Below, one piece after another: positions 4,477-14,956 of a stretch of DNA of 15,052 nt. Each line of letters starts with the position of its first letter. Positions within the stretch are counted from its first letter, which is position 1. The stretch covers positions 1 to 15,052 of the forward strand of contig JAJYAH010000078.1 in the NCBI GenBank assembly GCA_021779635.1. Reading direction: 5' to 3'. The DNA is from Pseudomonadota bacterium. Lineage in GTDB: Bacteria > Pseudomonadota > Alphaproteobacteria > Rhizobiales > Xanthobacteraceae. Both the position numbers and the translations under genes were made by a program. The notes under the pieces were generated by a model. It was given only the letters and a program-made list of their open reading frames with translations. It ran no database searches and was not told the origin of the DNA.

Positions 4477-4498
4477 AAAATCGCGCTATTGCGGTTTT
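4477..4498 (-). terminator. Possible weak hairpin terminator at the end of the efflux operon
   Basis: An inverted repeat of 8 pairs (one G-T wobble) with a 6-base loop: AAAATCGC pairs with GCGGTTTT. The stop codon of the outer-membrane efflux gene (4486-4488) lies in the stem-loop. Read on the - strand, the right arm ends in four T residues, so it resembles a short intrinsic terminator. The U-tract is short and the stem is half A-T, so the call is tentative. Confidence 0.25.
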
Positions 4499-6045
4499 GC
4501 GATCGGGGCAGGACTCAAGCGATCCTCGCCCATCGCGCATTCCCGCCAAACCGGAGTTGTGCAGCCGACCGGCCAGCCGCCGCCGAGCGCCATGAACAAT
4601 GCGGCGGTGTCGGAGAGACGATTGGCTTCGGTTTGCACGCGGTTTATCGCGGCGGTCAGGTAGGTCTGCTGCGCATTGAGAACCGCGAGTTGATTGACCT
4701 GCCCGGCGCTGAGCTGCTTCTGGACGATTTCGAGGCTGGCCTTTGCGGTGTCTTCGGCATGAACAGCCGCCTTGATCGCACGGGCATCGGCCTGCAGGGC
4801 GCGCAAGGCATCTGCCACATTCTGGAATGCGGTGATGACGGTGGCGCGGTACTGGGCTTCGGCCTGTTCGAGCGCTGCCTCAGCCGCCTTCTGCTTGTTG
4901 TACAACGTGAACCCGTCAAAGATCGGCGCGGTTGCGCCGGCTGCGAGCGTATAGAATCCGGTTCCGGGCGTAAAGCTTTGTGCAATGGTGTAGGCGTTAG
5001 ATCCGCCGTTGGCCGAGAGCACGATGTTCGGCAGGCGGGCAGCGATCGCGACCCCCACCAGCGCGCTCGCCGAGTGCATATTGGCTTCCGCAGCCCTCAC
5101 GTCCGGGCGCTGATCAACAAGCTTGCCGGGCAGGCTCACGGGCAAGTTTGCCGGCAATTTAAAATGCGCAAGATCGAATTTCTGTTCGATCTCATCGGCT
5201 GACAATTGCCCGGCAAGGGCTGTCAGCAGATCGCGTTGCTGTGCGAGCTGCTTCTCGAGCGGTGGAAGCAACTCTTCCGCCTGTGCCAGTGCCGCATCCT
5301 GCGCGAGCACGTCCGCTTGCGCCGCCTGACCGAAGCTGAGCTGACGCTTGAGGATATCGAGAAGGTTACGCTCAATACCGATAATGCGCTGCGTCGCCGC
5401 GATCTGGCCGCGAAGCGAGGCCTCCTGAATGGCGGCCGTCACGACATTGCTGGTCAGGGCGAGGTAGGCGGCTTCAAGCTGAAACAGTTGTTGTTCCGTC
5501 ACGGCGTCAAGGTTCTCGACCGCCCGGAAGTTGGCGCCCCAGACATCCGGCACGAAGGTGACCGTCAGCTGATTGGTCACAAGCGTGTATTGAGACTGTG
5601 GTCCCGTCGTTGGAATGGGCGGCACCTGGCCGGGATTGGCAATTAGGTAATCCGCGCCGTTCGAATTTCCCGATATCTGCGGAAAATACAGTCCGCGCTG
5701 AGCCAGGGCATTGTATCGAGCGACCTTGATCGCCGCCTCGGCCGCCTGCAGGTTTGGATTGCGGTCGACCGATTGCCTGACCAGTTGGTTTAGCGGCGGG
5801 GATTTGAACGCCGACCACCACCGTGCTGAAACGTCGGCCCCGGTGACGAAATGCTGCCCGGCCACCGCAGGTCCGCCGCGACCAGGATCAGGCGAAGCAA
5901 GTTTTCCGCGCACGTAACCATCGGCGTCCGGCGCTGGAGGCGAGACAAAAGTCGGGCCGACGGCACAGCCAGAAATGGCCAACGCAAGGATCCCGGCGGG
6001 GACTCCGCAGGCCGCTTGCCACCATCGACGCACGATGTACAACAT
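4486..6045 (-). CDS. NodT-family outer-membrane efflux lipoprotein (TolC-like channel of an RND system)
   Basis: A 519-residue protein, normal for RND outer-membrane factors. It would form the trimeric channel that carries substrate across the outer membrane, docking on the fusion protein and pump encoded just upstream. A lipoprotein signal is clear: basic 'RRWW' near the N-terminus, a hydrophobic core, and lipobox I24-S25-G26-C27 with Ala at +2, consistent with outer-membrane sorting. Two TolC-like repeat domains (OEP type) follow, roughly residues 75-280 and 295-485, rich in long Ala/Gln helices such as 'NPNLQAAEAAIKVARYNALA' and 'QRPDVRAAEANMHSASALVG', the latter the usual 'RPDVRxAE' signature. 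ATG at 6043-6045 follows the RND pump's stop by 41 bases, so the genes are almost surely co-transcribed. Its Shine-Dalgarno is weak. The family call is firm; substrate specificity is not set by this component. Confidence 0.92.
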   Translation of the reverse strand: MLYIVRRWWQAACGVPAGILALAISGCAVGPTFVSPPAPDADGYVRGKLASPDPGRGGPAVAGQHFVTGADVSARWWSAFKSPPLNQLVRQSVDRNPNLQAAEAAIKVARYNALAQRGLYFPQISGNSNGADYLIANPGQVPPIPTTGPQSQYTLVTNQLTVTFVPDVWGANFRAVENLDAVTEQQLFQLEAAYLALTSNVVTAAIQEASLRGQIAATQRIIGIERNLLDILKRQLSFGQAAQADVLAQDAALAQAEELLPPLEKQLAQQRDLLTALAGQLSADEIEQKFDLAHFKLPANLPVSLPGKLVDQRPDVRAAEANMHSASALVGVAIAARLPNIVLSANGGSNAYTIAQSFTPGTGFYTLAAGATAPIFDGFTLYNKQKAAEAALEQAEAQYRATVITAFQNVADALRALQADARAIKAAVHAEDTAKASLEIVQKQLSAGQVNQLAVLNAQQTYLTAAINRVQTEANRLSDTAALFMALGGGWPVGCTTPVWRECAMGEDRLSPAPIAKPQ

Positions 6046-6086: not shown

Positions 6087-9000
6087 TCAACCTTCTAGAC
6101 CTTTTTCAGCTTCCGGTGCGCCCTCATCATCGGCGACAATCGGATTTTCTCTTGCGAGAAATATCTTTCGAAGCGCGGGCGCGACCACGAGCAGCAGCAG
6201 AGGTCCGATAAACATACCGCCCACGACCACGGTCGCCAAAGGGCGTTGCACCTGGCTTCCTATGCCATGCGAGATCGCTGCCGGAAAAAGGCCAACGCCT
6301 GCCGAGAGCGCGGTCATCAGCATCGGCCGCATCCGTTGTTCAGCGCCATGGAAGACCGCCTCGGCGATATCCATGCCCTGCGCCCGGAGTTCCCGGAAGT
6401 AGGTAATGTTGAGAATTCCATCCATGACGGCGACGCCAAACAGCGAGATGAAGCCGATCGCTGCCGAGACGCTGAAATCGAGCCCGGCGAAATACAGGGC
6501 GATCAGGCCGCCCCCGATCGCAAACGGGATGCCGGCAACTGCCAGCAGGCTGTCGCGCAACGAATTGAACAGGCCATAGAGCAGCACAAGAATAAGAAGC
6601 AGGGTGATCGGCACCACGACCATGAGCCGCTTCTTTGCATTCTGCAGGTCGTCGAACTCACCGGCCCAAAGGATCTGGTATCCGTTCGGGAGCTTGATAG
6701 CCTTGGCGACGCGCGCCTGTGCCTCCTCGACCGTGCTGCCGAGATCGCGGCCGCGAACGCTGAACTTGATCGGAATGAAACGCTGGCTGCGCTCGCGATA
6801 GATGAACGAAGCGCCCGTATCGAGCGTGATGTCAGCCAATTCGCTCAGCGGAACATATCCATTGATGCCTGACGGGGTCGAATAGGCGACTTTGACAGTT
6901 CGAATGGCCGCAATGCTGGTGCGGTATTTGGGATCCAGCCTGACCGCCAGGTTGAACTGCCGATCGCCTTCGAGGATGGTTGTCGCGTTCGTGCCGCCGA
7001 GCGCTGCCTGAACCACGGTATTGACGTCGCCGGTATTGAGACCGTAGCGAGCGGCTTTTTCGCGATTGACCTTGATGTTGAGATTGGGCTGACCGAGCAA
7101 GTGAAATATGCCGAGGTCGGCGACGCCCTGAACCTTGGTCATCTCGGCCATCACCTGGGTCGCAAGCGATTCCAGCGTCTCCAGGTTTGGTCCTACGATC
7201 TTGACCGAATTGGCGCCCTTGACGCCCGACAGGGCTTCCTCGACGTTGTCCTGGATATACTGCGAGAAGTTGAAGCCGATTCCGGGCAATTCCTCGCTGA
7301 ACTCCTTCTGCAACTCCTCGGTCAGTTTTTCCTTGGTGAGGTCGGCCGGCCATTCGTCGAACGGCTTGAGCGGTGCAAACAGCTCGACATTCGAGAACGG
7401 CGAGGCATCGCTGCCATTGTCGGGACGACCGTGTTGGGAAACCACGGTGAGGACCTCCGGATGCCGCAACAGGATTTCCCGCATCTTGCCCGTGGCCGCG
7501 GTGCCCGCATCAAGCGACATCGTAGACGGCATCGCCGCCCTGATCCAGAAATTGCCCTCCTCCAACGCCGGCAGGAATTCACTGCCAAGCCGGGAGGCGG
7601 CAAGCCCGCTGAGCGCGAGAAACGCCACTCCCACCATGACGGCAATCCCGAGATGGGACAGCGCCCATCGAAGCACCGGCGTATAGCTCGACCGCAGGGC
7701 ACGGACGATTATCGTCTCGGTCTCCTCAATTTCCTTCGGCAGCAGCAGGGAGGCCAGAACCGGCGTCACCGCGAATGTCGAGAGCAGCGCGCCTGCCAGC
7801 GCGTAGCCATAGGTCCGGGCCATCGGACCAAAGATCTGGCCTTCGACGCCCTGCATGGTGAACAAGGGCACGAACGCCGTGACTGTAATCGCCGCCGTAA
7901 AAAAGACAGCCTTGTCGACCTGCAACGCACTGACGAAGATGACGCGCAGTCGCTCCGTCCACTTCTTGGCCGATGTGGTATGGGCATGTGTCGATGTCGG
8001 ATCGGGGCCCCAATAACCTTCCGACAGATGCTGAAGAAGCGTTTGCCTATGCGCGTTGTCTGACTGAAAATTGCGGTAAATATTCTCCATCATGATCACC
8101 GCGGAGTCGACGATGATGCCGAAGTCGACCGCCCCGAGCGACAGCAGGTTCGCGTCTTCGCCCTGCAGCACGAGGATAATGATGGCAAAGAACAACGCGA
8201 ACGGAATATTCGCGCTGACGATGATGGCGCTGCGCAGATCGCCGAGGAATATCCATTGAATGAGAAAGACCAGCAGGCAGCCGAAAATGAGATTGTGCAG
8301 GACGGTATGCGTGGTCACCCCGACCAGCGAGCTGCGATCGTAGTAGGAAACAACTTTGACCCCCGGCGGCAGGCTTCCATCGCTATTGAGCTTCTCGACC
8401 TCGGCCTCGACGCGCGGGATGATATCGTTGGTATGCTGGGTCCGTCCCATCACCACAATCGCGGCCGCGATATCGTCATCATGGTCCCTGCCCCCGATTC
8501 CCAGGCGCGGCACGTAACCAACGGAAACGCTCGCGACATCCTTTACCTGGATCGGAAGACCGTTCGACTGGGTTAAGACGACGTTCTCGATATCCTGGAC
8601 CTTGTAACCCTTGGTGACGTCGTCGGCGCCACCGCTGTCGACCAATCCAACACCGCGAATATTGACGGACTGCTGGCCGATCGAGATTTCGCGGCCGCCA
8701 ACATTGATGTTGGCATTGCCGAGCGCGGTGATGAGCTGGGGGATCGAAATATTGTAGGCTTCCAGCTTTCCGAGATCGGCGTCGACGTTGAATTGCTTTG
8801 TGGTGCCGCCCCAGCTGTTGATCTGCACCACGCCAGGGATGGTGAGAAGGCGCCGGGTGACGACATAGTCTTGTAACGTCCGCAGATTGGTCAGCCCGAA
8901 ATGCGGCGGACCGACAACCTGATAGCGGTAGATTTCACCGACCAGGCTGGATTGCTGTATCTGGGCGACCTGGTTGCCAGGCAGGTTGACGTTCTGCTGC

Positions 9001-9341
9001 AGGCTGATCGACGCTTGCGTCAGGGCAAAATAGAAGTCGACCCCGTATTTGAAGGTGACGCGGACAAACGACAGGCCATAGAACGAGGTCGAGCGGATAT
9101 TGATGACCCCGGGCGTCGGGTAAAGCCCCACTTCCATTGGAATGGTGTAATATTTCTCCATCTCCTCGGCGGACAGGCCGGCGGCCTGTGCCGTGATTTC
9201 CAGAATAACCGGCGCCGGATTTGGGTAGGCTTCGATGTTGAGCCGTGAAAACGCGATGATTCCCGCGGCACAGAACACCACAAGACCCAGGACAATGATC
9301 GCGCTGCGCGTCAGCCCGAACTCAAGTAGAGACTTAATCAA
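6087..9341 (-). CDS. HME-type RND efflux pump, inner-membrane permease (CzcA/CusA-like)
   Basis: A 1084-residue RND permease with the expected order: TM1 (about residues 12-33), periplasmic porter loop, TM2-7, second periplasmic loop, TM8-12. It is a proton-driven exporter and works as a trimer with the fusion protein and outer-membrane factor encoded beside it. TM4 reads DFGIIVDSAVIMMEN with D406, D412 and E419. This is the D-x5-D-x6-E pattern that defines the heavy-metal (HME) class; D402, D408 and E415 of Cupriavidus CzcA are the known counterparts. Around 'EEALSGVKGANSVKIVG' I do not see a methionine matching the CusA copper/silver relay, so Cu/Ag specificity is not supported. The cytoplasmic stretch between TM4 and TM5 seems longer than in family members I recall and carries H452 and H454. 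The start is TTG at 9339-9341, with GGGG 4 bases upstream; no nearby in-frame ATG exists before the first porter domain. The exact substrate is unknown. Confidence 0.9.
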   Translation of the reverse strand: MIKSLLEFGLTRSAIIVLGLVVFCAAGIIAFSRLNIEAYPNPAPVILEITAQAAGLSAEEMEKYYTIPMEVGLYPTPGVINIRSTSFYGLSFVRVTFKYGVDFYFALTQASISLQQNVNLPGNQVAQIQQSSLVGEIYRYQVVGPPHFGLTNLRTLQDYVVTRRLLTIPGVVQINSWGGTTKQFNVDADLGKLEAYNISIPQLITALGNANINVGGREISIGQQSVNIRGVGLVDSGGADDVTKGYKVQDIENVVLTQSNGLPIQVKDVASVSVGYVPRLGIGGRDHDDDIAAAIVVMGRTQHTNDIIPRVEAEVEKLNSDGSLPPGVKVVSYYDRSSLVGVTTHTVLHNLIFGCLLVFLIQWIFLGDLRSAIIVSANIPFALFFAIIILVLQGEDANLLSLGAVDFGIIVDSAVIMMENIYRNFQSDNAHRQTLLQHLSEGYWGPDPTSTHAHTTSAKKWTERLRVIFVSALQVDKAVFFTAAITVTAFVPLFTMQGVEGQIFGPMARTYGYALAGALLSTFAVTPVLASLLLPKEIEETETIIVRALRSSYTPVLRWALSHLGIAVMVGVAFLALSGLAASRLGSEFLPALEEGNFWIRAAMPSTMSLDAGTAATGKMREILLRHPEVLTVVSQHGRPDNGSDASPFSNVELFAPLKPFDEWPADLTKEKLTEELQKEFSEELPGIGFNFSQYIQDNVEEALSGVKGANSVKIVGPNLETLESLATQVMAEMTKVQGVADLGIFHLLGQPNLNIKVNREKAARYGLNTGDVNTVVQAALGGTNATTILEGDRQFNLAVRLDPKYRTSIAAIRTVKVAYSTPSGINGYVPLSELADITLDTGASFIYRERSQRFIPIKFSVRGRDLGSTVEEAQARVAKAIKLPNGYQILWAGEFDDLQNAKKRLMVVVPITLLLILVLLYGLFNSLRDSLLAVAGIPFAIGGGLIALYFAGLDFSVSAAIGFISLFGVAVMDGILNITYFRELRAQGMDIAEAVFHGAEQRMRPMLMTALSAGVGLFPAAISHGIGSQVQRPLATVVVGGMFIGPLLLLVVAPALRKIFLARENPIVADDEGAPEAEKGLEG

Positions 9342-9387: not shown

Positions 9388-10614
9388 TCAGCCGGCATCG
9401 CCGAGCAGGAGTTTGTTGCTCAGAAATATCGCGCCATCCGTGACAACGATTTCTGCAGGCTGAAGGCCTTCCAATATCTGGGTCCAGCCATCCTGCTGCA
9501 GGCCGACCTTAACGGTTCGTTTTGTGAAATGACGGCTGTCGCTGGTCACCCACACCGTCATCGTTCCGTCACCTTCCCTGACAACGCCGTTCGCCGGCAC
9601 CGCAAGCGACTGCATCGGGTCTCCGACACGAATGACAAAGCTTGCGAACATTCCCGACCGCAGCAGATGCTTGGGATCGTCGATTTGCGAGCGGACCAAT
9701 TGCCGATGGGTGTTGGGGTCGATGATCGATCCCAACGTCGTCACGCGCCCTTTGAAGACGGTGTCCGGATATGCCGGTACCTTTACCTCTACGCTCTGAC
9801 CGAGCTTGTAGGCCGGCGCGTCCGTCTCGATGACATTCGCGATCATCCACATCGTCGATAGATCAGCCACCGCATACGGCGCCGGCGCATTGCCCGGCTG
9901 GGTCAGGAACCCGGGCGCCGCACTGCGCGCCACCACTCTTCCGGAAATCGGGCTGGGGACCAGCAGAACGGAATCGACCTTGCGCTTGTCGACGATCTGG
10001 TCGATCTCGGCATCGGTCTTGCCGAATATCCGAACCGCGTCCCTTGCGGCCTTGAAATTACCCTCCGCGGTCTGCTCGTCCGAGGTTGACTGATCGACGT
10101 CTTTCTGGGCGCTGCCGCCCGCCTTCAAAAGCTGGGTGGCGCGCGCCAGCGTCCGCTTCTGCAATTCCAGTACGCCGGCGGCCGCGAGCAGCGTTGATTC
10201 AGCCTGCAGCAGGTCCGGGCTATCGATGGTGAAGAGGACGTCGCCGGCCTTGACGTCGTCGCCTATGTTGAAATTGGCTTTGAGAATCTTCCCCGGATAT
10301 TGCGAAAATACCTGGACGAGCAAATCCTCGTTAAAATCAATGGTACCGACAGCGGTTTTGAAAAGTGTAAAATCACGCGATGCCAGAGGACCTATCTTGA
10401 GGGCACTCGCCTGCTTTTCGGATAAATCAACCGACGCGTCCGACGACTTGCCGGATTGGTCCGCGGCCGCAGATGAATTCGCCTCCTTTCGTCCCGCCGC
10501 AGTATCGGCATGGCCGATGAAGCCCCTGCTCCAAAACAGTGCGGCCACGCCGATCACGATCAGCGCGAAAAGCACCACCCGAGATAGCCTCGAAAGGCTT
10601 CCGAAAACATTCAC
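9388..10614 (-). CDS. RND membrane fusion protein (periplasmic adaptor, CzcB/CusB-like)
   Basis: A 408-residue periplasmic adaptor that bridges the RND pump and the outer-membrane channel. An N-terminal hydrophobic anchor or signal segment spans about residues 12-28. The barrel-sandwich (lipoyl-like) halves lie at about 98-132 ('YPGKILKANFNIGDDVKAGD') and 215-250 ('PSPISGRVV'), separated by an alpha-helical hairpin (about 134-208). A beta-barrel (about 254-330) and a membrane-proximal domain follow. The N-terminal region lacks the Met- or His-rich metal-binding segment of CusB-like proteins, so the adaptor gives no hint of copper. The start is GTG at 10612-10614 with a GGGGG run about 8 bases upstream; an ATG beside it is out of frame. 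The pump gene starts 46 bases after this gene's stop, so it is the first gene of a three-gene efflux operon. Its promoter should lie in the 300 bases upstream. Confidence 0.92.
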   Translation of the reverse strand: MNVFGSLSRLSRVVLFALIVIGVAALFWSRGFIGHADTAAGRKEANSSAAADQSGKSSDASVDLSEKQASALKIGPLASRDFTLFKTAVGTIDFNEDLLVQVFSQYPGKILKANFNIGDDVKAGDVLFTIDSPDLLQAESTLLAAAGVLELQKRTLARATQLLKAGGSAQKDVDQSTSDEQTAEGNFKAARDAVRIFGKTDAEIDQIVDKRKVDSVLLVPSPISGRVVARSAAPGFLTQPGNAPAPYAVADLSTMWMIANVIETDAPAYKLGQSVEVKVPAYPDTVFKGRVTTLGSIIDPNTHRQLVRSQIDDPKHLLRSGMFASFVIRVGDPMQSLAVPANGVVREGDGTMTVWVTSDSRHFTKRTVKVGLQQDGWTQILEGLQPAEIVVTDGAIFLSNKLLLGDAG

Positions 10615-10864: not shown

Positions 10865-10886
10865 CCGGAATAATCGATTATTCCGG
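10865..10886. promoter_or_regulatory. Perfect 22-bp palindrome, possible operator or hairpin
   Basis: The 22 bases read identically on both strands: a CCGGAA / TTCCGG outer arm around an A/T-rich core TAATCGATTA. It begins 32 bases downstream of the stop of the small exported protein gene and about 250 bases upstream of the fusion protein start, both on the - strand. Two readings fit: a dimeric regulator's binding site, or an RNA hairpin (9-bp stem, TCGA loop) ending the small-protein transcript. No T-tract follows on either strand, so it is not a standard intrinsic terminator. Confidence 0.55.
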
Positions 10887-10918: not shown

Positions 10919-11161
10919 CTATTCGACTTCCCGCCACATCGGAGACTTCGGACCTCCATAGTAGCGCATGGCGGCGGGCCCTGCGCTCTCCCGAGCCGGG
11001 GCGCCTTGGATATATTGCGCCCGCGCGTTCAACCCATGGAAAGGAGCGGTGTGAACCCTGTGCCTGGCCGCAGCATCGCTGGCGAACCCGGCGGCAGGGA
11101 TCATCGCTGCAGCCAAAGCCAGGGACCCCCTCCGCGCACTTCTGGAATTAATGTTGGGCAT
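10919..11161 (-). CDS. Small exported protein ending in MRYYGGPKSPMW motif
   Basis: Not a family I can name. The start is ATG 11159-11161, with GGGGA 8 bases upstream (and GAGG closer), in preference to an upstream start at 11209 that would add 16 residues before a normal signal peptide. The 80-residue product has a basic N-terminus (RSARRGS), a hydrophobic core 'LALAAAMIPAAG' and a probable signal-peptidase site near residues 26-30 (GFASDA). The mature part of about 52 residues holds a short His-containing stretch (HRVHTAPFHG, about 34-43) and ends with MRYYGGPKSPMW at 65-76 plus four residues. The last 12-residue motif is shared with the next gene upstream. It is therefore probably a periplasmic or surface protein encoded between the barrel genes and the RND efflux operon. 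Function unknown. Confidence 0.7.
   Translation of the reverse strand: MPNINSRSARRGSLALAAAMIPAAGFASDAAARHRVHTAPFHGLNARAQYIQGAPARESAGPAAMRYYGGPKSPMWREVE
10934..10969 (-). repeat. 36-bp coding repeat, copy 1 (encodes MRYYGGPKSPMW)
   Basis: This stretch matches 11206-11241 at 32 of 36 positions, in the same strand and frame. The four differences fall at third codon positions of GG, P and K codons (GGA/GGC, GGT/GGC, CCG/CCA, AAG/AAA) and leave the protein unchanged. Confidence 0.9.
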
Positions 11162-11193
11162 GGCCTCAATCCCCAAATACGAAGTCTTCACAA

Positions 11194-11352
11194 CTAGCGA
11201 TCCGACCACATCGGAGATTTTGGGCCGCCATAGTAGCGCATCTGACCGCTACCGTCCGACTTCCCCGATGTCGCAACTCCCGTATCGCCGGCGCATCCCG
11301 CAGCAGCGCCACAGAGCGCGGCGGCAGCCAGCACAATCCCGGTCCTTCGCAT
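11194..11352 (-). CDS. Very small lipoprotein ending in MRYYGGPKSPMW motif
   Basis: Not a named family. From ATG 11350-11352 the product is 52 residues: MRRTGIVLAAAALC leads to lipobox A17-A18-G19-C20, so the mature lipoprotein would be only 33 residues. It has a Gly/Ser/Thr-rich linker and then MRYYGGPKSPMW at 38-49, ending three residues later. The open frame extends upstream to 11463, but that start is TTG and would put 37 polar residues before the signal. The chosen start has no good Shine-Dalgarno, so it remains uncertain. The gene ends 32 bases before the start of the small exported protein gene and begins 82 bases after the Omp25/31-like gene's stop, on the same strand. Ala at +2 after the Cys suggests outer-membrane location. 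Confidence 0.65.
   Translation of the reverse strand: MRRTGIVLAAAALCGAAAGCAGDTGVATSGKSDGSGQMRYYGGPKSPMWSDR
11206..11241 (-). repeat. 36-bp coding repeat, copy 2 (encodes MRYYGGPKSPMW)
   Basis: Second copy of the 36-bp coding repeat at 10934-10969, within the small lipoprotein gene. The flanking sequence of the two genes shows no comparable similarity, so only the motif is kept. Confidence 0.9.
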
Positions 11353-11434: not shown

Positions 11435-12169
11435 TCAATATCTCGTAGCAACGGCCCCTCCAAATTTGAAGTCCAGGCCCAGCGTTATGACGGAGTAGGT
11501 GCTGTTGACCGTGTAAGGGAGCTGACCGTTCGGCGTGAGCGGCGCGCCGGCGCGGCTGTACGCACCAAAATCGTAGTAGCGGTATTCCAGTTTGCCGATG
11601 ATGTTATCGGTCAGCGCATAGGCAATACCGCCGCCGCCGGTCAGGCCGCTCCGGTGATTCGTGAACTGATCGATTCCATTTACCGGATCGGTGTTGGTAT
11701 GAACCAGGTCGCCATATGCCCAGCCACCGGTGAAGAACATCAGCAAGCGGTCAACGGTGAAACCGCTTCGCGCACGCAGCGTGCCGCCCCAGCGCAGGTT
11801 TGTCGCATCGTTCGAACCGAGGGCAAACGCGTCGTTGCCCTTGATATTGGACCAGAACAAGTCGCCTTCGACGCCGAATAAATATCGGCCGCTCTGCACG
11901 TTGTACCCCGCCTCGCCGCCCGCCAATTCGCCCTGCGAGGAATAATTGACGGTGTAATTTGCAGCGCCGGCAAAGCCCAGCGCGTTATCGAGATTGTGAT
12001 TGCCGTAACCGCCGCCACCGAACCCGCCGACGTAGAAACCGGTCCAGTCATAGACTGGCGCCGCGAGCACCGGAGACTTGGTATAGGCGGTCGGAAGATC
12101 GGCCGCCAGTGCCGGCGATAACAGGCCGAGCACGCCAAGCGCGACGGTGGTGAAAAGAATTCGTTTCAT
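11435..12169 (-). CDS. Omp25/Omp31-like outer-membrane beta-barrel protein
   Basis: A 244-residue member of the small porin/OmpA-like barrel family common in Rhizobiales. Signal peptide residues 1-22 end in ALA before ADLP. Next comes 'AAPVYDWTGFYVGGFGGGGY', the usual start of the first strand in this family. Alternating Gly/aromatic strands follow, such as 'YLFGVEGDLFWSNI', 'GFTVDRLLMFFTGGWAYGDL' and 'IGKLEYRYYDFGAY', and a final strand 'YSVITLGLDFKFGGAV' ends in ATRY. It should sit in the outer membrane as an 8-stranded barrel; the exact role of such proteins (structural, diffusion or host-surface) is usually unknown. ATG at 12167-12169 has a strong AGGGGA 5 bases upstream. It starts 70 bases after the larger barrel gene's stop, on the same strand. 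Confidence 0.88.
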   Translation of the reverse strand: MKRILFTTVALGVLGLLSPALAADLPTAYTKSPVLAAPVYDWTGFYVGGFGGGGYGNHNLDNALGFAGAANYTVNYSSQGELAGGEAGYNVQSGRYLFGVEGDLFWSNIKGNDAFALGSNDATNLRWGGTLRARSGFTVDRLLMFFTGGWAYGDLVHTNTDPVNGIDQFTNHRSGLTGGGGIAYALTDNIIGKLEYRYYDFGAYSRAGAPLTPNGQLPYTVNSTYSVITLGLDFKFGGAVATRY

Positions 12170-12239: not shown

Positions 12240-13874
12240 TCAGAAGTGAATGATGATGTCCGCCGAACCGATGAGGGCGAAGTCTTTGGTAGCCGGGATA
12301 CCGAGGTTCGAATTGCCATTGAACGCGTTCGCATTCAGCGACCTGTAATACGAAACCTCGGGCCGGATCTCGATCTGGGGAGAGAACCAGTGCTGCCAGC
12401 CGATACCGGTCTCGAAGTACGCGGTCTTGGTGCCGGTACGCTGTCCTTGAGCATCGTCATAATACTCAAGACGATACGAAATGTTGTCCAGCGGCGACGG
12501 CTTGTAGTTCAGGTAGGCGAGAGCGGTCGTCGTGCTGGTATTACAGGTGAGCACCGTTGGGTCTTTGCATTGCGCGAGGCCGGGCGCGTTGAACGGCATG
12601 AATTGGGGCGAGAACGGAGTACCTCCGCCGGCGACAATGCCCGCGGCCGTGCCATTAAGCGCATTGGGTACGTTTCTCTCGCCCAAATTGTACGCTTCGA
12701 ACGAGATATGCCACTGATCGTTGAAGATGTGATAGTAGGTCAGTCCGTACCATTGCAGGTTGTTGTAGCCCCACTGACCACCATTGATCGCGTCGGCGAC
12801 AACGTTGATGCTGTCTTTTCCGCTGTCGGTTGTGTAGCGAAGCCCGGCGGTGACGCTGGGCGTCGCGCCCGGATCTTTCAGGAATGTCGAACCTGGATAA
12901 AGCGGGTTGCCCGGGAGCAGGTTCGTGAGACGCGCGCCTTCGTCCCAGGGCATCGTGTCGCTGCCGACACTATAACCTAGTTGGAGAATCCAGTTCTTGG
13001 TCATCGCCAAAGTGGCTTGAACTCCGGTGTTGGTGTAGTTGTCGAAGGTGTAGGTCATCGAGTGCGTGTACATGTAATTGTTCGGCGCGAGCTGGGCCTC
13101 GATGTCCGGAATTGAAATGAAGCGCCCGAACCGGATCAAAAGTCCCTCGGCGACCTGCGGGATGAATACCTCGCCATAGGCCATCGGCAGGTCGTAGCCG
13201 TAATTCTTGTTCTCGTTCAGGAGCTGGTTGCTCCACAGGCCGTAGGCCGTGGTATAGCGATAATTCTCGCCGTAAATCGGCGCTAACCGGAAGCCCCAGT
13301 CGACGTGGTCCTTCTGGACCGTATCCGGCAGCCGCTCGATATAGACGACCGCCTGATCGAGTTGGACCGTGTTGGGGTTATAGTCATAGGCCGCCGGCGC
13401 GTTGCCGCCCTTCACGGTATTGGTGCTGAGGTTGCCGCCGGCATTGATCCAGCCATAAATCTGAATATGAGAATCGCTCAACGCCTGACCCGCGGTAGTA
13501 TTGCTGAGCGCAGCCATCAGCGGGCTATCGATCGAGTTCGGCCGCGTCACGCCAAGGCTGGTCGATCCGCCATACGGCCACTCCGTAAACGGCATCGGGG
13601 GCGTGCTCTGCGGCGTGGTCGGCCAATAATCACGACGCGACGGTGGCACTTTTGGATCTGCCGGCGCGACTTCATGCCCCCATTCGAGTCTGTAGTAGCT
13701 GACCAGACGACTCATGAAATCCAGGCCGAGATAAGGGTCGAGACACGAATAGTTCTTGTAGGGATCGCCGCCGTTGATGCAGGCGTTGGCCTTAGGCGTG
13801 GCGTCCGCAGCACTTGCCCCGTTGATCATGCCGATCGTCGCCAACGAGACGCCTGCCAAAAGAAGTTTTTTCAT
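12240..13874 (-). CDS. BBP2-like outer-membrane beta-barrel porin
   Basis: A 544-residue exported protein. A signal peptide (MKKLLLAGVSLATIG..., cleavage near GASA at 19-22) is followed by a mature N-terminus with Cys32 and Cys44, then a Pro-rich stretch. Long runs of alternating polar/aromatic residues follow, such as 'QIYGWINAGGNLSTN', 'VDWGFRLAPIYGENYRYTT' and 'SYRLEYYDDAQGQRTGT', with a C-terminal Phe in DIIIHF, the BAM recognition pattern. It resembles the putative beta-barrel porin-2 (OmpL-like) family of Bradyrhizobium relatives, known only as outer-membrane porins. A second Cys pair (QCKDP...LTCNT) lies in a likely extracellular loop. ATG at 13872-13874 has GGGGC 6 bases upstream. It is first in the seven-gene - strand block and may be co-transcribed with the Omp25/31-like gene. 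Confidence 0.8.
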   Translation of the reverse strand: MKKLLLAGVSLATIGMINGASAADATPKANACINGGDPYKNYSCLDPYLGLDFMSRLVSYYRLEWGHEVAPADPKVPPSRRDYWPTTPQSTPPMPFTEWPYGGSTSLGVTRPNSIDSPLMAALSNTTAGQALSDSHIQIYGWINAGGNLSTNTVKGGNAPAAYDYNPNTVQLDQAVVYIERLPDTVQKDHVDWGFRLAPIYGENYRYTTAYGLWSNQLLNENKNYGYDLPMAYGEVFIPQVAEGLLIRFGRFISIPDIEAQLAPNNYMYTHSMTYTFDNYTNTGVQATLAMTKNWILQLGYSVGSDTMPWDEGARLTNLLPGNPLYPGSTFLKDPGATPSVTAGLRYTTDSGKDSINVVADAINGGQWGYNNLQWYGLTYYHIFNDQWHISFEAYNLGERNVPNALNGTAAGIVAGGGTPFSPQFMPFNAPGLAQCKDPTVLTCNTSTTTALAYLNYKPSPLDNISYRLEYYDDAQGQRTGTKTAYFETGIGWQHWFSPQIEIRPEVSYYRSLNANAFNGNSNLGIPATKDFALIGSADIIIHF

Positions 13875-14320
13875 AGTTTTGCCCCAAGCTGCTATTACAG
13901 ACGCCTTCAGGCGCTCTCACGGTTTGTTCACCCTGAGAATTATCTTTCGTTGGGGGACAGAAAAAATCGATACGCTTCGCCGCGCCGTTTCATAAAGAAT
14001 AGATAACTAAAATCGCGGCTTTGACCCTGATTGCTCGTGCAATCATCAGTTGCCCATTGGAGCTGCTTAAATACCCGGCGAAATACGCGACTTTTCAGCA
14101 AATATCGGCAACGCGCTGCAACAATTTCCTCAGCCATGTGTCTTTTTCGTTACAATGTCTGACACTGATCGAAGATCTTTTGTCCGCGAAAACAAGCAAG
14201 CCGCGCCTTGGCTATTTTTTTTCTATGGAAATGGCGGCGTTTGCCCATCGAAGATATATGTCGCTAATCGTTATGCTGGCGTGGTGAACGAAATCTGTTC
14301 GCTCCTCACGAGGCGTGACG
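13875..14320. other. Divergent intergenic region with an inverted repeat and an A/T-rich leader
   Basis: About 445 bases between the porin gene (-) and the orphan gene (+). It contains the TGATTGC/GCAATCA inverted repeat (listed separately), a TACAAT hexamer at 14151-14156 that could be a -10 box for the + strand gene but with no good -35 partner, and a run of eight T residues at 14215-14222 after a weak 4-bp hairpin, which might attenuate transcription in the leader. Short open frames here (for example 14021-14287 on +) look like chance. Promoters for both flanking genes must lie here. Confidence 0.5.
14028..14045. promoter_or_regulatory. 18-bp inverted repeat TGATTGC-N4-GCAATCA, possible operator
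   Basis: TGATTGCTCGTGCAATCA has perfect 7-base arms around TCGT. It lies 154 bases upstream of the porin start and 276 bases upstream of the divergent orphan gene. The shape fits a dimeric repressor or activator site. I cannot match it to a named regulator by eye. Confidence 0.45.
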
Positions 14321-14956
14321 ATGGAAGCTGTGGCAGACGCTGCATATGACGTGGGTAGCGTGGCTCTCGCAGGCGGGATTGAGAACTTCGATCTCAGTTT
14401 CTTGCCGAAGAACCTGACGGCTCAGTGCCAGAGTCTGATCGTCAGCTACCACGAATTGCACGGCTATGCGTGCCTCCCGAACATCCTGTGGAAGGCCAGG
14501 CTGGGGCATTTCATCGAAGCGCATCAGGAATTTCGGCAACTCCTCAAGAAAGCTTCAACGACCCGGAGCGCAAAGAAATCCAACGAGGGCTTTGCTCTGA
14601 TCGCAACGACGATATTGTCGCTTGAAATCCTGGCAAGCAGTTTCGCCGGATGGAGCGCGATCTACCCGCAAGCGGGATTGATCGCCCGTACAATCCTGCA
14701 GCAAAATGCGCGCAGCCCGCATATGCCTTTGATGGAGTTCTATCTCTATCCGCCCAAATATATCAGTTCAACCGCCATCGCGACGCTTGCTCCGCCCGCG
14801 ATTCTGCAACCAACCGAGACGGAATTGTATCCCGCGGCGAAACCAGAATTCTCCGACGAGAAGCTGGCCCTCAATTACGCCAATACGATTCATCGGGCGT
14901 TGCATGGACGGCCGCTTTATACGGTTGCAACATCGCCCGCCTTCGATCCGGCTTGA
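14321..14956 (+). CDS. Hypothetical protein, 211 residues, family not recognised
   Basis: I do not recognise this protein. ATG 14321 is chosen over the in-frame GTG at 14315 because GAGG at 14310-14313 is 7 bases upstream. The N-terminal half (residues 1-75) is acidic to mixed with a single Cys26-like region 'PKNLTAQCQSLIVSYHELHG' and predicted helix. Residues ~78-88 are basic (TTRSAKKSNEG). Residues ~90-126 are hydrophobic with 'FALIATTILSLEILASSFAG', which could be a membrane segment or a buried helix. The C-terminal third is Pro-rich (PPKY, APPAILQP). There is no signal peptide at the start. A phasin-like helical protein was considered, but the pattern is not clear enough. It is divergent from the envelope block and shares its upstream region. 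Nothing in the sequence shows its function. Confidence 0.6.
   Translation: MEAVADAAYDVGSVALAGGIENFDLSFLPKNLTAQCQSLIVSYHELHGYACLPNILWKARLGHFIEAHQEFRQLLKKASTTRSAKKSNEGFALIATTILSLEILASSFAGWSAIYPQAGLIARTILQQNARSPHMPLMEFYLYPPKYISSTAIATLAPPAILQPTETELYPAAKPEFSDEKLALNYANTIHRALHGRPLYTVATSPAFDPA

Follow-up and report, generated by a model that had tools for sequence, protein, structure and literature searches.

Two adjacent tiny genes in the 15,052-nucleotide stretch of DNA analysed here (the window) end in the same residues, which raises the question of what a tail common to two small exported proteins might be for. A reading of the sequence alone had described one of the genes as having a plain signal peptide and the other a lipobox, had placed the pair between barrel genes and an RND efflux operon, and had proposed that the tail is translated and selected. 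Both open reading frames were found on the minus strand where that reading had put them, with OMP_b-brl and BBP2 genes upstream and the genes of the adaptor, the RND pump and the NodT-type subunit downstream, as follows.

11194..11352, minus strand: gene B, small lipoprotein of 52 aa (open reading frame with ATG at 11352 and stop at 11194), ending MRYYGGPKSPMWSDR
10919..11161, minus strand: gene A, small exported protein of 80 aa (open reading frame with ATG at 11161 and stop at 10919), ending MRYYGGPKSPMWREVE
11206..11241, minus strand: tail of B, MRYYGGPKSPMW, 36 nt
10934..10969, minus strand: tail of A, MRYYGGPKSPMW, 36 nt
12240..13874, minus strand: BBP2 porin gene (c0; PF07642, 123.1 bits)
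11435..12169, minus strand: OMP_b-brl outer-membrane barrel gene (c3; PF13505, 47.2 bits)
9388..10614, minus strand: RND periplasmic adaptor of HlyD_D23/CusB type (profile match)
6087..9341, minus strand: RND pump of the CusA/CzcA family (TIGR00914, 833.9 bits, cut-off 701.45)
4486..6045, minus strand: NodT-type efflux outer-membrane subunit (TIGR01845, 367.6 bits)
14315..14956, plus strand: c5, conserved divergent neighbour of 213 aa (no Pfam or NCBIfam match)

Two small exported proteins with one tail

B begins MRRTGIVLAAAALCGAAAGC, in which a lipobox was read by eye, and A carries a plain signal peptide, also recognised by eye and probably cleaved after DAAA; a gap of 32 bases separates the two genes. 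The tail MRYYGGPKSPMW lies close to the C-terminus of both proteins, followed by SDR in B and by REVE in A. At the DNA level the two copies form a 41-nt direct repeat (10929-10969 and 11201-11241, 85% identical), and a codon comparison bore out the earlier count of four differences over the 36 coding bases (GGC/GGA, GGC/GGT, CCA/CCG and AAA/AAG), each at a wobble position and every one silent. AlphaFold2 predicted a signal helix in B (mean pLDDT 63.6) and a low-confidence long helix in A (mean pLDDT 58.3), and gave the tail no confident structure; this agrees with a linear motif but is weak evidence, since low confidence is common for short sequences with shallow alignments.

Between A and the RND adaptor gene lies a perfect 22-bp palindrome, CCGGAATAATCGATTATTCCGG (10865-10886), the sole perfect, spacer-free palindrome of at least 16 bp in the window. 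It was rejected as a feature going with A, being absent from the 500 nt after A in 22 other A loci.

The residues of the tail are under strong purifying selection

Counting all pairs among loci picked by a tail expression that demanded P and W and restricted several other positions, a choice that inflates tail conservation, we obtained a pN/pS within the tail of 0.079 in B (30 loci, without the B of L104, which the script missed) and of 0.041 in A (23 loci). Outside the tail, the ratio was 0.657 in the B signal, 0.776 in the B linker and 0.791 over the 30 aa preceding the A tail. Synonymous positions of the tail were free to vary (pS 0.51-0.57) and its residues hardly changed: R, the first Y, G, G, P, K and W were invariant across these loci, and the Lys was constant in 30/30 B and 23/23 A loci, with a search expression that permitted K, E, R or Q there. 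The selection ratio that had been proposed as a check thus came to 0.04-0.08, with no excess of non-silent change, and the low ratio together with the variable synonymous positions upholds the claim that the motif is translated and selected and is not a DNA repeat. A control free of selection by the tail expression is provided by the search that started from the porin, described below.

Tails of A and B were as alike at the nucleotide level within a locus (identity 0.847) as between different loci (0.849; 18 loci). Gene conversion between them is therefore not supported as an explanation of their likeness, and the two tails are kept independently.

Six loci (L113, L115, L119, L126, L127 and L128) carry a single gene with the front of B and an A-type end (RAPAEN). 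In L115, L126, L127 and L128 about 490 nt of downstream DNA are 75-77% identical to the DNA that follows A in L114; this is what fusion of the pair by a deletion between the tails would produce, and such a deletion seems to have occurred there. Downstream of the fused gene in L113 and L119, comparison with L114 gave no such match. Some A proteins (L103, L107, P0127, P0129 and P0136) have the tail twice, with the second copy internal, which shows it as a module. The tail Lys is followed by 2-11 residues in the loci read and by more in a few database entries (P0044), and in one A relative (P0082) Glu replaces it. Both the residues after the Lys and the internal copies speak against a tail that is read as a free C-terminus or processed in the manner of a sortase substrate.

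The complete tail occurs almost only in Bradyrhizobium

Protein searches yielded 77 homologues for B and 60 for A, the majority on short contigs, and a recognisable tail is kept in 134 of these 137, a share biased upwards by the selection of candidates through shared words, those of the tail included. The source names ‘anti-sigma factor RsiW’ and ‘poly(3-hydroxybutyrate) depolymerase’, attached to the A/B relatives P0004, P0081 and P0085, look like automatic mislabels.

When 84,980 species, represented by one genome each, were searched for DNA encoding the 10-residue core (YYGGPK followed by Ser, or by one of a few alternatives, and PMW), 15 stretches matched. The sequence-only reading had proposed a search for the motif across the Rhizobiales; it does occur in other genomes, but its exact form is nearly restricted to Bradyrhizobium, which accounts for 14 of the 15 stretches. 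The remaining one lies on a contig filed as Streptomyces sp. AcH 505 (NZ_JTIY01000027.1, loci L003 and L129), where BBP2, OMP, B, RND and two-component genes stand in the order found in Bradyrhizobium, so that it is probably an assembly contamination. A slightly wider pattern matched 13 of 391 genomes of the family. One of these, G358, falls outside the set of 265 genomes searched for the genus, and the system therefore seems to extend into a neighbouring genus.

A and B belong to a wider group marked by RYxGGPK

The motif had been described as a property of the A/B pair; both proteins do bear it, but RYxGGPK also ends several other small exported families. In 12 Bradyrhizobium genomes, hand-picked and most of them chosen for an already known tail match, the pattern [RS]Y.GGPK gave 35 matches against 14 for the reversed pattern. 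Thirty of the 35 were read in context; 29 of these have R, all ending 2-10 residues before the stop, and 28 of the 29 have a signal-like start as judged by eye, the other (L150) lying in a short, broken-looking frame. A or B account for 10 of the 29, and the others belong to further families: family C (AGSTITDKSYWPNEAR...RYxGGPKS), family D (...HRYHGGPKSND) and family G, which joins another front to the end of D. Position x is occupied by Y, H, Q, E, S, V or D, and signal peptides were recognised by eye in A, B (with its lipobox), C, D and G.

Profile comparison with hhalign aligned C with D over nearly their full length (98.7%) and A with D over 58 columns (96.9%), whereas A-C (17 columns), B-C (20) and A-B (26) aligned in the tail region only. 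Variants of C bridge to the KSPMW end of A and B, with a KSPW end in L210 and L214 and KSPMI inside L205. For family D, 1895 of 7996 scored candidates matched at E<=10, the candidates having been picked by shared words with tail words among them; among the 120 matches listed, RY.GGPK is present in 115, its Lys always three residues before the end. At the level of the family, 198 genomes gave 37 DNA matches to RY.GGPK and 71 to its reverse, which is no enrichment; the evidence there comes from position and protein context. By reading, 16 of 26 new family-level loci are of a tail type and 10 are chance or doubtful.

No Pfam family matched A, B, C, D or G above the cut-off, the one below-cut-off match of D being to another family, and NCBIfam gave three matches far below the cut-off for B and none for A. 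Searches for PDB relatives of B and C returned chance-level matches only. The earlier statement that no function has been described for the motif agrees with a search of the open-access literature, subscription papers and supplements being outside its scope, in which the motif strings were not found. A and B are thus members of an apparently undescribed group of small exported proteins in Bradyrhizobium and related genera, with RYxGGPK near the C-terminus as its hallmark.

The tail system co-occurs with the BBP2 porin

With the BBP2 protein of the window as query, 30 of 257 genomes of the genus matched at E<=1e-100, and a tail protein was present in 30/30. B matched in 27 of them (E<=3e-19), and the remaining three (G172, G008 and G053) have A-type proteins only. 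The B search itself reached 99 of 257 genomes at E<=0.01, of which 28 (E<=4.1e-16) were taken as B, G172, G008 and G053 being counted as A only and the other matches set aside as weak; the porin and B searches were assumed to cover the same 257 genomes, since the same number and draw are stated for both. B is present without a BBP2 match at E<=1e-100 in G004, and G078 has three porin matches and three tail matches. This co-occurrence could also arise if an island is inherited as a whole, its products never touching one another.

Neighbourhoods of 35 tail loci gave a concordant picture, with BBP2 in 33, OMP_b-brl in 32, c5 in 32 and RND genes in 22. A response regulator is present in 33 and a sensor kinase in 31 of the 35 stretches, both named by eye and presumably KdpDE-like; the window ends before them. 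RND pumps near A/B are of two kinds, 85-89% or 46-48% identical to that of the window. A is present in 18 of the 22 tail loci with RND genes and in 4 of the 13 without (Fisher p 0.004, a value that overstates significance because loci of one genus are non-independent); L123, with its B-like profile match, was counted as lacking A in this tally, yet was labelled A in the neighbourhood survey and stands among the 23 A loci of the pN/pS analysis. With RND genes in only 22 of 35 loci and two pump types, the pump cannot be the sole partner, and as an obligate partner of A/B it is ruled out by the 13 loci without it and by the change of pump type. The pump gene of L098 (9721-12879) appears split into two adjacent open reading frames of 511 and 535 aa, perhaps by a frameshift or an assembly error.

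Family C is linked to RND genes and ECF16-type sites

Of the C loci, two divergent members (L215 and L217) included, 18 of 23 have an RND gene within 7-8 kb, compared with 1 of 16 loci of other tail families, and most tail loci of D/G type have no RND gene nearby. Three pumps were scanned, from two C loci, and belong to the CusA/CzcA family (1227-1567 bits), as do all RND pumps scanned, namely that of the window, that of L138, two of L131 and one of L207. With crude gene calling, an NrsF-like gene adjoins the C gene in 13 of the 23 loci and an ECF sigma gene is found in the stretch in 12; the pair in L131 matched sigma-70 regions and NrsF (PF06532, 212.9 bits). An ECF16-type site, GTAACC...CG, stands about 300-340 nt before the tail in 20/23 C loci and in 0/14 D/G loci, GTAACC and an anchor on the tail having been adopted once the result with a wider pattern was in hand. 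That wider GTAAC pattern, anchored on gene starts and with a background of 0.134 per kb per strand, was found in 18/23 C loci and in one D/G locus (L225, 40 nt upstream).

Such sites recall two described responses. In Caulobacter, copper raises the expression of the SigF/NrsF genes, and mutation of sigF makes the cells sensitive to copper (PMC8224329). In B. japonicum, the ECF16 factor EcfF and OsrA answer H2O2, and the EcfF promoter is GTAAC(g,a)-N14-15-(c,t)CG(t,a) (PMC3420878; also PMC6180224). Family C resembles this EcfF-OsrA regulon in its GTAAC...CG promoter and, in 13 of 23 loci, in the adjoining NrsF-like (DUF1109-type) gene; unlike the regulon, A/B are without the promoter site. Hypothetical genes are among those in the regulon table of PMC3420878. 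C is also like the DUF2282 proteins of the Caulobacter copper regulon (PMC8224329), being small, exported, set in an ECF sigma/NrsF context and preceded by an ECF16-type site. Against this likeness, A, B, C, D and G have no DUF2282 match and a different tail, and mature A and C lack Cys, a few members excepted. DUF2282 proteins are also called bufferins, and their genes adjoin one for a DUF692 (MNIO) enzyme; among nine profile-scanned neighbours from five loci, no DUF692 gene was found.

Around A and B, 34 loci showed no ECF16-type site close upstream of either gene, with scattered matches only: before the tail gene of L122 (280 nt), before the porin of L103 (254 nt) and upstream of c5 in L109, L110 and L120. 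ECF16 control of A/B was rejected, as the single tail-gene match among the 34 loci is 280 nt away.

A docking peptide and its alternatives

Short, constant and without predicted structure, carried on variable linkers, doubled at times and followed by variable residues, the tail behaves like a linear docking peptide. Its carriers are both lipid-anchored and free exported proteins, which together with the variable residues after it speaks against a free-carboxylate tag or a sortase signal. We give a probability of roughly 0.45 to the reading that the tail is a linear docking peptide of small envelope-stress proteins, which at this locus serves the porin/OMP/metal-efflux island. The variable linker would carry the tail from the membrane anchor in B, or from the mature N-terminus in A, to a common envelope partner. 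We infer that the tail binds a protein; the partner or client at the A/B locus would most likely be the porin/OMP pair that nearly always accompanies it, with BBP2 as the best candidate client. The C-family tail protein, encoded beside RND efflux genes, would take part in an ECF16-type stress response and, by analogy with C, metal or oxidant stress would be the best candidate setting for A/B.

A bolder extension, which we regard as doubtful, is that RYxGGPK is an unrecognised C-terminal address code read by one dedicated envelope receptor in Bradyrhizobium and its allies. If this were true, unlike small exported proteins would be placed at porins and metal-efflux complexes under envelope stress. 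C-terminal sorting tags such as LPXTG, PEP-CTERM and GlyGly-CTERM are likewise short, conserved motifs near the C-terminus of otherwise unlike exported proteins, but unlike sortase and exosortase signals RYxGGPK has no hydrophobic helix or basic cluster after it, the proteins ending in SDR, REVE, SGQ, RGPAEN and so on. Few components of the bacterial envelope are as poorly understood as small exported proteins, and here a tail with a pN/pS about 8 to 20 times below that of the rest of its genes marks a group without a Pfam model above the cut-off, linking two branches of the group to porins, to stress control of the ECF16 type and to RND efflux. For soil and symbiotic Bradyrhizobium, the tail peptide as bait, the porin that nearly always travels with it and a promoter that might be induced offer handles on the function of these proteins.

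Among the alternatives, the best surviving, although unlikely, is that the tail is a metal-binding or metal-handling peptide, with A and B acting as periplasmic metal buffers or as chaperones for the RND pump, much as CusF serves CusCBA as periplasmic metal chaperone. Like the CusF/CzcE-type proteins, which are small periplasmic partners of HME-RND pumps, the tail proteins are small and predicted to be periplasmic, and by gene neighbourhood they lie near RND genes at the 22 A/B and 18 C loci counted above, the pumps scanned being of CusA/CzcA type; A is moreover basic and rich in His and Arg, and the A/B tail includes Met and Trp. However, RYxGGPK, the core that the families have in common, contains neither Cys nor Met, and no His in it is obligatory; the tail is kept in the 13 A/B loci without RND genes, and RND genes are near only 1/16 loci of the other tail families. 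Unlike the CusF/CzcE-type partners, A, B, C, D and G have no Pfam match above the cut-off, B and C have chance-level PDB matches only, and the linkage to pumps is inconstant.

We consider it distinctly improbable that the tail is an envelope tether, its GGPK Lys joined to peptidoglycan or the tail itself binding the wall, so that B would bridge the outer membrane and the wall. The model for this is the Braun lipoprotein Lpp, a small lipoprotein whose C-terminal Lys is joined to peptidoglycan, and B, with its lipobox and its constant Lys near the end, is alike; its neighbours, moreover, are outer-membrane barrels. In B, however, the Lys is followed by SPMWSDR, in none of the loci read is it C-terminal, the module can be internal and Glu stands in place of the Lys in P0082. 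The predicted helix of B, unlike that of Lpp, is the signal only, and the alignments of A, C, D and G, proteins judged by eye not to be lipoproteins, show no general lipobox.

Just as improbable, in our estimate, is that A, B and their relatives are precursors that give rise to a free signal or effector peptide made of their conserved end. Peptide-hormone precursors have the same architecture of a signal peptide, a variable linker and a constant, sometimes repeated end, which the tail proteins match down to the occasional second copy. B would nevertheless be lipid-anchored, what follows the core varies from family to family, the co-occurrence with the porin is left unexplained, and no processing protease was found among the identified neighbour clusters, most neighbours having been clustered and not annotated.

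That the motif is a DNA or RNA element, such as a repeat or a regulatory RNA, is very unlikely and was rejected on the codon pattern and the lack of any Rfam match in the window at gathering scores, despite the direct repeat and the likeness of the DNA after the fused genes of L115, L126, L127 and L128 to that after A in L114.

Other small exported families

Two further sets of small exported proteins came to light beside families C, D and G. Proteins with HHYxGGPKSE-type segments, repeated in L056, L183 and L232 and also present in L059, form a small exported family, perhaps one more branch of the tail group. Four loci (L042, L043, L055 and L064) encode small exported proteins that contain Cys and have CVVNPYYGGPK close to their end; we take them to be DUF3551-like.
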